A stretch of DNA of 49,525 nt from the NCBI RefSeq assembly GCF_024436055.1, contig NZ_JANFNH010000052.1:1-49525 (forward strand). The letters are read 5' to 3'. The notes under the pieces were generated by a model, which saw nothing but the letters and a program-made list of their open reading frames with translations, had not been told where the DNA came from and did not search any database. Shown piece by piece: positions 185 to 4,614 of this stretch. This stretch comes from Streptantibioticus rubrisoli (GTDB lineage: Bacteria > Actinomycetota > Actinomycetes > Streptomycetales > Streptomycetaceae). Positions within the stretch are counted from its first letter, which is position 1. The number at the start of each line of letters is the position of its first letter. The position numbers and the translations under genes are program-made.

Positions 185-3100
185 ACCGAATCCGCCTCGC
201 CCTCCGCGAAGTCGACCGCGAGCACCTCCTCCGCCACGAGGCCCGCGTGCTCCGAGAGCGCCGCCGCCAACTCCGCGCCGGATGCGGCCCAGCGCAGCGC
301 GATCCGGTCCGCCACGTCCAACCCGCTGTTCTTACGGGCCTCCTGGATGAGCCGGATGGCGTCCCGGGCCAGGCCCGCCCGCCGCAGCTCGGGAGTGATC
401 TCCAGGTCCAGGGCGACCGTCGCCCCCGAGTCGGACGCCACCGACCAGCCCTCACGCGGGGTTTCGGTGATGATGACCTCCTCGGGGGAGAGGCTGACCG
501 TCTCCCCGTTCACCTCCACCGACGCCGTGCCCTCGCGCAGCGCGAGCGACAGCGCGGCGGCGTCCGCCTCGGCGATGGCCTTGGCGACCGGCTGGGTGCC
601 CTTGCCGAAACGCCTGCCCAGCGCACGGAAGTTGGCCTTCGCCGTGGTGTCCACCAGCGAGCCGCCGACCGCGGAGAGCGATTGGAGGGAGCTGACGTTG
701 AGCTCCTCCGCGATCTGCGCGCGCAGGTCCGCGTCCAGCTCCTCGAAGCCCGCCGCCGCGACCAGTGCGCGGGACAGCGGCTGGCGGGTCTTGACGCCGG
801 ACTCCGCCCGGGTCGCCCGCCCGAGCTCAACAAGGCGGCGAACCAGGGTCATTCGGGCGGAAAGCACAGGGTTGATCAGGTTCTCGTCAACCGTCGGCCA
901 GCTGGACAGGTGCACCGAGTCCGGGGCGTCCGGCGTGGTCGGCACGACCAGGTCCTGCCAGACGCGTTCGGTGATGAACGGCACCAGCGGGGCCATCAGC
1001 CGGGTGACCGTCTCCACCACGTCGTGCAGGGTGCGCAGCGCCGCCTGGTCGCCCTGCCAGAACCGGCGCCGCGAGCGGCGGACGTACCAGTTGGACAGGT
1101 CGTCCACGAACGCCGACAGCAGCTTGCCCGCCCGCTGGGTGTCGTACGACTCCAGCGCCTCGGTGACGTCCCGCACCAGTGCGTTGAGCTCACCGAGCAG
1201 CCAGCGGTCCAGCAGCGGCCGGTCGGCGGGGGCCGGATCGGCGGCGCTGGGCGCCCAGTTGGAGGTGCGGGCGTACAGCGCCTGGAAGGCGACGGTGTTC
1301 CAGTAGGTGAGCAGCGTCTTGCGCACCACCTCCTGGATGGTGCCGTGGCCGACCCGGCGGGCCGCCCACGGCGAGCCGCCCGCGGCCATGAACCAGCGCA
1401 CCGCGTCCGCGCCGTGCTGGTCCATCAACGGGATGGGCTCCAGGATGTTGCCCAGGTGCTTGGACATCTTGCGGCCGTCCTCGGCGAGGATGTGGCCGAG
1501 GCAGACCACGTTCTCGTACGAGGACTTGTCGAAGACCAGCGTGCCGACCGCCATCAGCGTGTAGAACCAGCCACGGGTCTGGTCGATCGCCTCTGAGATG
1601 AACTGCGCCGGGTAGCTCTTCTCGAAGACCTCCTTGTTGCGGTACGGGTAGCCCCACTGCGCGAACGGCATGGAGCCCGAGTCGTACCAGGCGTCGATCA
1701 CCTCGGGGACGCGCACCGCTTCCAGAGCGCAACCGTCCGTGGTGCAGCCGAAGGTGATCTCGTCGATGTACGGACGGTGCGGGTCCAGTGAGGTCTGGTC
1801 GCTGCCGGTCAGCTCGCTCAGCTCGGCGAGCGAACCGACGCAGGTGAGGTGGCCCTCCGCGCAGCGCCAGATGGGCAGCGGCGTGCCCCAGTAGCGGTTG
1901 CGGGACAGCGCCCAGTCGATGTTGTTGTTCAGCCAGTCGCCGAAGCGGCCGTGCTTGACCGCCTCCGGGAACCAGTTGGTCCGCTCGTTCTCGCGCAGCA
2001 GCGCGTCCTTGATCTGCGTGGTGCGGATGTACCAGGACGGCTGTGCGTAGTACAGCAGCGCGGTGTGGCAGCGCCAGCAGTGCGGGTAGCTGTGCTCGTA
2101 CGGCAGGTGCCGGAACAGCAGGCCGCGCGACTGCAGGTCGGCCACCAGCGCCTCGTCGGCCTTCTTGAAGAACTGGCCGCCGATCAGGCCCAGTTCACCG
2201 GTGAAGGTGCCGTCCGGGTTGACCGGGTTGACCACCGGCAGCCCGTACGCCCGGCAGGTCTTGAGGTCGTCCTCACCGAAGGCGGGCGCCTGGTGGACCA
2301 GACCGGTGCCGTCGTCGGTGGTCACGTAGTCGGCGTTGACCACGAAGTGGGCGCCCTCGATGTCCACCAGCTCGAACGGGCGCTGGTACGTCCAGCGCTC
2401 CATCTCGGTGCCGCGGTAGGTCTCGCCGGTGGCGGTCCAGCCCTCGCCCAGCGCCTTGCCCAGCAGCGGCTCGGCCACCACCAGCTTCTCGGTGCCGTCG
2501 GTGGCCACCACGTAGCTGACGTCGGGGTGCGCGGCCACCGCGGTGTTGGAGACCAGGGTCCACGGGGTGGTGGTCCACACCAGCAGCGACGCCTGGCCCG
2601 CCAGCGGGCCCGAGGTGAGCGGGAAGCGGACGAACACCGACGGGTCGACGACCGTCTCGTACCCTTGCGCCAGCTCGTGGTCGGACAGTCCGGTGCCGCA
2701 GCGCGGGCACCACGGGGCCACCCGGTGGTCCTGCACCAGCAGGCCCTTGTCGAAGATCTGCTTCAGCGACCACCAGACGGACTCCACGTACTCCGGGTCC
2801 ATCGTCCGGTACGCCTGGTCCAGGTCCACCCAGTAGCCCATGCGCCGGGTCAGCGCGGCGAAGGCGTCGGTGTGCCGGGTGACGGACTCGCGGCACTTGG
2901 CGTTGAACTCGGCGATGCCGTAGCGCTCGATGTCCTGCTTGCCGGAGAAGCCCAGCTCCTTCTCGACGGCCAGCTCCACCGGCAGCCCGTGGCAGTCCCA
3001 GCCCGCCTTACGGGTCACATGGTGGCCCCGCATGGTCTTGAAGCGCGGGAAGACGTCCTTGAAGACGCGGGCCTCGATGTGGTGCGCGCCGGGCATTCCG

Positions 3101-3258: not shown

Positions 3259-3274
3259 CGGAATGTCCTCCGGC

Positions 3275-3522
3275 GGATACGGTCGATCTCCGTCGGAGGG
3301 ACGAGAGCGCGTGCTCCCGCGGTACCACCCTCCTTGGCCGGGAGTGTCCTCCCGACCCCCTCATTGGGGTCGCGACACCGGTTCTACTCGCCCATAGGGC
3401 TTTCTTCCGGCGGCTCCGGGGTGATCTTCACGTCGCGCACACCCCCGGGCTCACACCGTCCCCGGGTCGCTGATGGCTGCGTACGGCGCTACTCGTCCCC
3501 TTCCACGCCTTTCGCTTCGCAC
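3275..3522 (-). promoter_or_regulatory. T-box leader of ileS (tRNA-Ile-sensing riboswitch)
   Basis: On the minus strand the conserved T-box bulge reads GGTGGTACCGCGGGAG (bases 3314-3329), which pairs with the uncharged tRNA acceptor end. Further upstream GAAGATCACC offers an ATC isoleucine specifier codon (bases 3423-3425). The leader runs almost into the ileS ribosome site with no obvious U-rich terminator. That fits the translational, ultrashort-Stem-I T-boxes known for actinobacterial ileS. The T-box sequence is certain; the specifier position and the mode of control are inferred. Confidence 0.9.
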
Positions 3523-3528: not shown

Positions 3529-3780
3529 CGGCGCGCCGGGCGGGTCCTCCTGCGGAATTCCCGGCTGGCCCCAGCCGTTCTCCCACTGACCCGAACAGGG
3601 GAGGTTGCGCGCCCTGGACGGGTCGCTACCGAGGCGTACCGGATTACCCACCGGTGAGCTGGGCACAACGGATGCAGACCTGCCTGCCGTGGGCGTGCCC
3701 CGTTGCCGCGGGCGCGGAGTCGATTTATCGTTCCGGCACGATTCGCGAGCAAGATCACACTATGTGAAGGGGCCGCGTCC

Positions 3781-4614
3781 ATGGCGGTGAAGAAGACCGC
3801 AGCGCCCAAGAGAGCGGCGCCCACCGCCAAGGCGGCCACGACCCCCAGGACGTCGGCCAAGAAGGCGGCGGCCAAGAACCCTCCGGCCAAGAAGGGGCCG
3901 GCGAAGGCGACGACCACCGGGAAGCAGGCCCCCGCCAAGAGGACACCGGCGAAGAAGGCGGCCAAGAAGGAGAGCGAGAAGAAGGAAGCGGCGACCGACG
4001 CCGCGACGCGACGAACGGCCGGAGCCGCCAAGGCCCCGGCCAAGAAGGCCACCGCCAGGAAGACGGCGGCCAGCGGCACCACCACCAAGAAGGCGCCGGC
4101 CGCGAAGAAGAACGCGACGGCCAAGCAGACAGGAGCCAAGACGGTGGTTGCGAAGAAGACAGCGGCCCGTGAGGCCTCCCCGCTCCCGACCGCCCGCACC
4201 GCGCCGGCCACGGTCGACCCCGGCACACTCGCCGTACGCCCCGGCGAGGAACCCTGGTCCTCGGCGGAGGTCGCCGAGGCCCGGACCGCCCTGACGGACG
4301 AGGCCAACCGGCTGCGCACCGAGATCCTCGCGTCCGAGGACGCGATCTCCGGCCTGATGCGGGACTCCGGCGACGGCGCCGGCGACGACCAGGCCGACGT
4401 GGGCACCAAGAACATCTCCCGTGAACACGAGATCGCGCTGGCCGAAAACGCCCGCGAGATGCTGGTGCAGACCGAGCACGCGGTCGAACGCCTGGACAAC
4501 GGCACATACGGTCTGTGCGAATCCTGCGGTAAACCGATCGGAAAGGCTCGAATGCAGGCCTTCCCCAGGGCGACCCTGTGCGTCGAGTGCAAACAGCGGA
4601 CGGAACGCCGCTGA
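3781..4614 (+). CDS. TraR/DksA-type C4 zinc-finger protein with histone-H1-like N-terminal tail
   Basis: 277 residues in two parts. Residues 1 to about 140 are almost pure Lys, Ala, Pro and Thr with many PAKK and AKKA units, like a eukaryotic histone H1 tail, and should bind nucleic acid. The rest resembles the DksA/TraR coiled coil and ends in a four-cysteine zinc finger (CESC, 17 residues, CVEC). DksA-type proteins enter the RNA polymerase secondary channel; whether this one does is inference. I chose ATG 3781 ([10 protein letters not shown]); an upstream in-frame TTG would add 26 unlikely residues. It diverges from ileS and precedes lspA in the same direction. Confidence 0.85.

Follow-up and report, generated by a model that had tools for sequence, protein, structure and literature searches.

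The window, i.e. the whole analysed stretch of 49,525 nucleotides, carries an ileS gene that is, with high confidence, the sole and housekeeping isoleucyl-tRNA synthetase (IleRS) of a Streptomyces-family actinomycete. It encodes a type 2 enzyme (IleRS2) under T-box control, in which the class I signature HxGH is replaced by GAHH, a swap that would confer hyper-resistance to mupirocin. A published resistance mechanism is built into an essential enzyme of a Streptomyces relative, which would therefore be expected to tolerate pseudomonic-acid-type IleRS inhibitors with no acquired gene. The trait is already known, its mechanism, the genus and a close orthologue having been published, and this host is not unusual in carrying it. 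Novelty is therefore low. Our data add counts of the spread of the trait among near relatives and establish no new principle. Table 1 gives an overview of the features of the ileS locus.

Table 1 Features of the ileS locus in the window
Feature	Position	Strand	Basis
ileS, type 2 isoleucyl-tRNA synthetase, 1044 aa	124..3258	-	TIGR00392 905.2 bits, matches to solved structures
GAHH, swapped class I HxGH signature, residues 57-60	3079..3090	-	translation, structure alignment
KMSKH, second class I signature (usually KMSKS), residues 597-601	1456..1470	-	position from sequence
T-box leader of ileS	3294..3514	-	RF00230, 74.1 bits, E 3.8e-16
T-box specifier codon AUC (Ile)	3423..3425	-	read from RF00230 alignment
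CGGAGG ribosome-binding site	3267..3272	-	sequence; pairing by inspection

The ileS product is a type 2 IleRS with a swapped signature

Translation of the window yielded a full-length open frame for ileS, and the protein scores well above the cut-off of 621.4 bits of TIGR00392. In a comparison with solved structures the best match was 1ile/1jzs (915.6 bits), which we take to be the IleRS of T. thermophilus. The IleRS2 entries of P. megaterium score 892.9–902.4 bits, whereas IleRS1 entries score lower (P. megaterium 332.5–341 bits, S. aureus 352.3 bits). The enzyme belongs to the ileS family and, as its scores are far higher against IleRS2 than against IleRS1 structures, it is a type 2 IleRS.

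The codons GGC GCG CAC CAC (3090–3079) specify GAHH, the last four of residues 49–60, at the position of HxGH. In the structure alignment this motif lies opposite HVGH of 1ile and opposite GVHH of 8c8w, an engineered GVHH mutant of the P. megaterium IleRS2. With glycine first and histidine third it belongs to the G/AXHH motif of IleRS2, which is defined by Gly or Ala in the first and His in the third position. WDCHGLP (residue 87) and GEDD of the editing domain (residue 328) are retained. The reading of GAHH for HxGH together with an intact KMSKH, made earlier from the letters of the stretch, was borne out by the translation.

The motif is fixed among near relatives

Near relatives were defined as the best 80 of 574 confirmed relatives from a contig scan. 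Their records are named Streptomyces, Actinacidiphila (2) and Actinobacteria bacterium (1), with best-segment identities of 83–96% and Streptomyces sp. RPT161 as the closest match (96%). MP-GAHH together with KMSKH is present in all 80, and the GAHH motif is written in 10 different synonymous 12-base spellings. Because all 80 relatives share the motifs with synonymous codon differences, GAHH is neither a sequencing slip nor due to chance.

This bears directly on the view that GAHH inactivates the enzyme or stems from faulty assembly, the gene being a decaying pseudogene. For several class I enzymes PMC10485003 cites a cost of about 1000-fold when the first histidine is lost, which would favour such decay, but the conservation of the same residues among the 80 best relatives refutes it. 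Furthermore, the frame is full-length, no other ileS was found in the genome and the S. griseus orthologue is reported to be active (PMC4861432). We therefore give a pseudogene practically no credence and continue with a functional GAHH enzyme.

A single ileS copy in the host genome

The host assembly comprises 103 contigs, with completeness rated at 100% and contamination at 2%. Searched with the window protein, it gave ileS itself and, at 29–30% identity, three segments of a single 880-aa frame. This frame encodes ValRS: two valine--tRNA ligase models match it at 1177.3 bits (cut-off 704) and 1025 bits (cut-off 612.1), and the ileS model gives 392.1 bits, below its own cut-off. In a search with the curated ileS profile one of nine matches exceeded the cut-off (905.9 vs 621.4 bits); the second-best match (176.9 bits) falls within the ValRS frame. 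Neither the protein query nor the ileS profile thus found a second ileS in the 103 contigs. With the assembly in this state, a second copy inside a gap is unlikely, though not impossible. The earlier note had held that a second, canonical ileS with the housekeeping role would overturn its inference of tolerance through the only visible IleRS, and the result of the search supports that inference.

The leader of ileS is a T-box

A permissive Rfam scan of 701 bases gave a match to RF00230 in the ileS leader that spans the whole model (positions 1–219 of 219). Its score lies below the gathering score of 93 bits, which is why the element is missing from a default Rfam scan. The full-length model match, the T-box core and a specifier fitting Ile together identify the leader as a T-box, and the T-box that the earlier note had placed ahead of ileS is indeed present. 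Among the best 80 of 574 relatives the core GGGTGG.ACCGCG lies upstream of ileS in every case, and the ATC specifier was detected by pattern in 74 and by eye in the other six.

By inspection, CCUCCG at 3294–3299, directly after the T-box core, is the complement of CGGAGG in the ribosome-binding site, and the two form a candidate sequestering hairpin. The minimum-energy single-strand fold of the leader was used neither for nor against this pairing. The 284-nt leader folds weakly better than shuffled sequences (z −1.78), a value not counted as T-box evidence. T-boxes upstream of actinobacterial ileS are described as hiding the Shine-Dalgarno box and as acting at the level of translation (PMC1262725). 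The window element resembles the type described there in that its end is complementary to the ribosome-binding site; no difference from it was apparent, with the window element scoring below the threshold of the general Rfam model. Such a T-box would sense uncharged tRNA-Ile and thereby control ileS, and its Ile specifier fits a housekeeping role of the enzyme.

Beyond the T-box leader lie a DksA/TraR-like gene (under the model cut-offs), a signal peptidase II gene and a gene of the RluA family. Gene context, copy number and leader together bear on a possible MupA/MupB-like role, in which the protein would serve resistance alone and another IleRS would do the housekeeping. MupA/MupB and the window enzyme are both IleRS2-like and resemble each other along nearly the whole length, with 769.7 and 744.4 bits on NF000257/NF000258. 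Both scores, however, are far under the cut-off of 1900 bits, and the identity to plasmid MupA records is about 37%. Moreover the gene is single-copy with no second ileS found in the genome, it is preceded by an Ile T-box and its neighbours resemble ordinary cell genes, so that a MupA/MupB-type enzyme is very improbable.

Expected consequences for mupirocin inhibition

According to Brkic et al. (2023), the swapped G/AXHH motif causes hyper-resistance to mupirocin, and the S. griseus IleRS2, for which they give a millimolar Ki, is one of its carriers (PMC10485003). In the set published there, 86 IleRS2 have G/AXHH and 77 HXGH, whereas all 158 IleRS1 have HXGH; values in Table 1 of that paper correspond to a shift of the mupirocin Ki of about 170- to 820-fold on motif exchange. 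The same paper describes a shifted helix tip in type 2 enzymes, by which the third histidine can replace the first one, and a model in which the third-position histidine clashes with mupirocin. For the S. griseus IleRS, Cvetesic et al. (2016) reported a Ki of 10 mM for mupirocin, rescue of E. coli on 100 µM mupirocin and a lack of tRNA-dependent pre-transfer editing (PMC4861432).

The window enzyme agrees with the S. griseus IleRS2, as described in both papers, in being of type 2 and in having GAHH and KMSKH. It is 85.2% identical (887/1041) to an S. griseus copy (L066), which may not be from the strain assayed. Within the catalytic-core stretches (residues 40–172 and 516–640) 239 of 258 residues are identical to this copy, and none of the 19 differences lies within the two signature motifs. 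Like the published G/AXHH subclass (PMC10485003), the enzyme is a type 2 IleRS with residues 1 and 3 of HxGH exchanged; nothing tested separates it from the subclass, X being Ala as in all of the 80 best relatives out of 574.

In the proposed mechanism, the third-position histidine of GAHH would do the catalytic work normally done by the first histidine, made possible by the shifted helix tip, and would collide with bound mupirocin, raising the Ki into the millimolar range. From the overall identity, the match of the core and the same motifs as in the S. griseus copy, we infer that the window IleRS is catalytically competent and, given the published motif exchanges and the 10 mM Ki of the orthologue, hyper-resistant to mupirocin. 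It probably also shares the editing behaviour of the S. griseus enzyme. Tolerance of mupirocin through the only IleRS, as suggested earlier, is on these published exchanges and this Ki a well-supported expectation.

Distribution of the swap in the class and phylum

A class search covered 197 genomes, the host genome included, all of which gave a match. Motifs were read in 61 of the other 196 genomes, hand-picked from ranked lists and hence a non-random choice. Among these, GxHH with Ala, Thr or Val as X is present in 50, at ≥60% identity, and HYGH in 11, at about 37–42%; in two further genomes picked (G043, G054) no IleRS N-terminus was found. The earlier note had implied that the swapped motif is rare. 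This did not hold, as 80 of the best 80 relatives (of 574) and 50 of the 61 non-randomly chosen class genomes carry it.

From a phylum sample of 198 genomes, 40 loci of 39 genomes, also chosen non-randomly, were read: 25 are GxHH, 9 HxGH and 6 other. Of the 25 GxHH loci, KMSKH is present at one, KMSKS or KMSKR at 21 and a different sequence at three, so a general coupling of KMSKH to the swapped motif was considered but rejected. KMSKH also occurs at one phylum locus without GxHH (GVHN, L182 in G230). Other altered signatures are HFGN with KMSKS (L184 in G238) and HLGT with KMSKL (L190 in G309), the latter on a far branch shared with an HLGH row. One genome (G345) holds two full-length IleRS2 genes (L186 and L187), one with GVHH and one with HYGH, and both exceed the ileS cut-off.

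Origin of the swap

A quick tree was calculated for 84 rows (the window and 83 loci), with SH-aLRT support and no bootstrap. Labels are GxHH for 60 rows, HxGH for 18 and other for 6. The window falls into a clade of 34 rows with support 100, all of which have GxHH and K/RMSKH. The GxHH label requires at least five changes on the 84-row tree; the motif is thus old but not changeless. Two HxGH rows from plasmid records (L211, L212) nest within a mainly GxHH part of the tree. In the published view the swapped motif arose at least twice (PMC10485003).

These data allow a reading in which the swap is an old alternative design of the active site that became fixed in the lineage, with mupirocin resistance as a by-product rather than a selected trait. 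The uniform GxHH in the 34 rows of the clade and in 25 of the 40 phylum loci read, as well as the GAHH kept by all 80 of the best relatives, agree with this. Nevertheless, wide and old conservation by itself does not separate such a design from antibiotic selection, which the authors of PMC10485003 presume. Furthermore the motif does change, as the minimum of five changes and the HxGH plasmid rows inside the GxHH part illustrate. We consider an old design with resistance as a by-product a serious candidate, though with a little less than even chances.

A more far-reaching proposal sees in GAHH a single stage of a wider drift of the active site in IleRS2, one that goes beyond adaptation to mupirocin. 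It draws on the old and fixed state of the swap and on a related phylum lineage with further altered motifs (AVHT/GVHT, EMHGS, FDCQGLW) in what is apparently the only IleRS of the cell. We regard this drift as rather unlikely and put it forward tentatively. If it were true, type 2 IleRS would be able to remodel almost all class I hallmarks, with mupirocin hyper-resistance as a side effect of active-site freedom. The preferred reading of the window gene, a sole housekeeping IleRS2 with a swap expected to confer resistance, was given above.

A lineage with further altered motifs

The divergent IleRS type was observed at eight loci in eight genomes of the phylum sample: L189 (G291), L192 (G357), L193 (G244), L194 (G359), L195 (G298), L199 (G331), L219 (G311) and L223 (G350). 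Six of them (L189, L192–L195, L199) form one clade with SH-aLRT support 99 in the 84-row tree, and L219 and L223 share the sequence marks of the lineage. FDCQGLW replaces WDxHGLP at all eight loci. The HxGH position reads AVHT or GVHT at three loci and GVHH at five, and the KMSKS position reads EMHGS, EMHYS, PMHKS or EEFSKS, with AVHT paired for example with EMHGS; at L219 a pattern search did not find the motif of the KMSKS position.

In each of the eight genomes (seven rated 90–98% complete, G244 82%) no match other than the divergent protein comes near the ileS cut-off: its score exceeds 621.4 bits in seven and is 620.0 in one, and the next-best profile match in any of them scores 211.5 bits. 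When L192 was the query, scores of ≥771 bits were reached in 13 of 296 genomes and the next score was 688, so the lineage is not a single odd assembly. Motifs were read in 8 of these 13 top genomes; percent identity by itself does not separate the two sides of the score gap, as 44% occurs on both. Among the papers listed, and judged by title, literature on IleRS motifs, IleRS divergence or Chloroflexi gave no account of this lineage, which may be included in the tree of PMC10485003, and a full-text literature search for EMHKS, EMHGS or MHKSWGN gave, again by title, nothing about synthetases. The lineage would matter more than the window gene, since it calls into question the extent to which an essential synthetase depends on the class I signature.

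Further observations

The Rhodococcus opacus plasmid NZ_CP095404.2 encodes an IleRS2 (L210:11977-15132) with GTHH and KMSKH that is 61% identical to the window enzyme. Its neighbours include condensation-domain, AMP-binding, LLM flavin oxidoreductase and TauD-type genes. It is likely the self-resistance gene of a biosynthetic cluster, and this cluster may make an IleRS inhibitor. A literature search found no paper on self-resistance by an IleRS in a Rhodococcus gene cluster. A megablast search of plasmids returned NZ_CP095404.2 and one partial match of 72% in Nonomuraea.

In the window, the DksA/TraR-like protein (3703–4614, + strand) has a long Ala/Lys-rich N-terminal extension, which weakly resembles histone H1-like proteins (20.5 bits vs a cut-off of 80).
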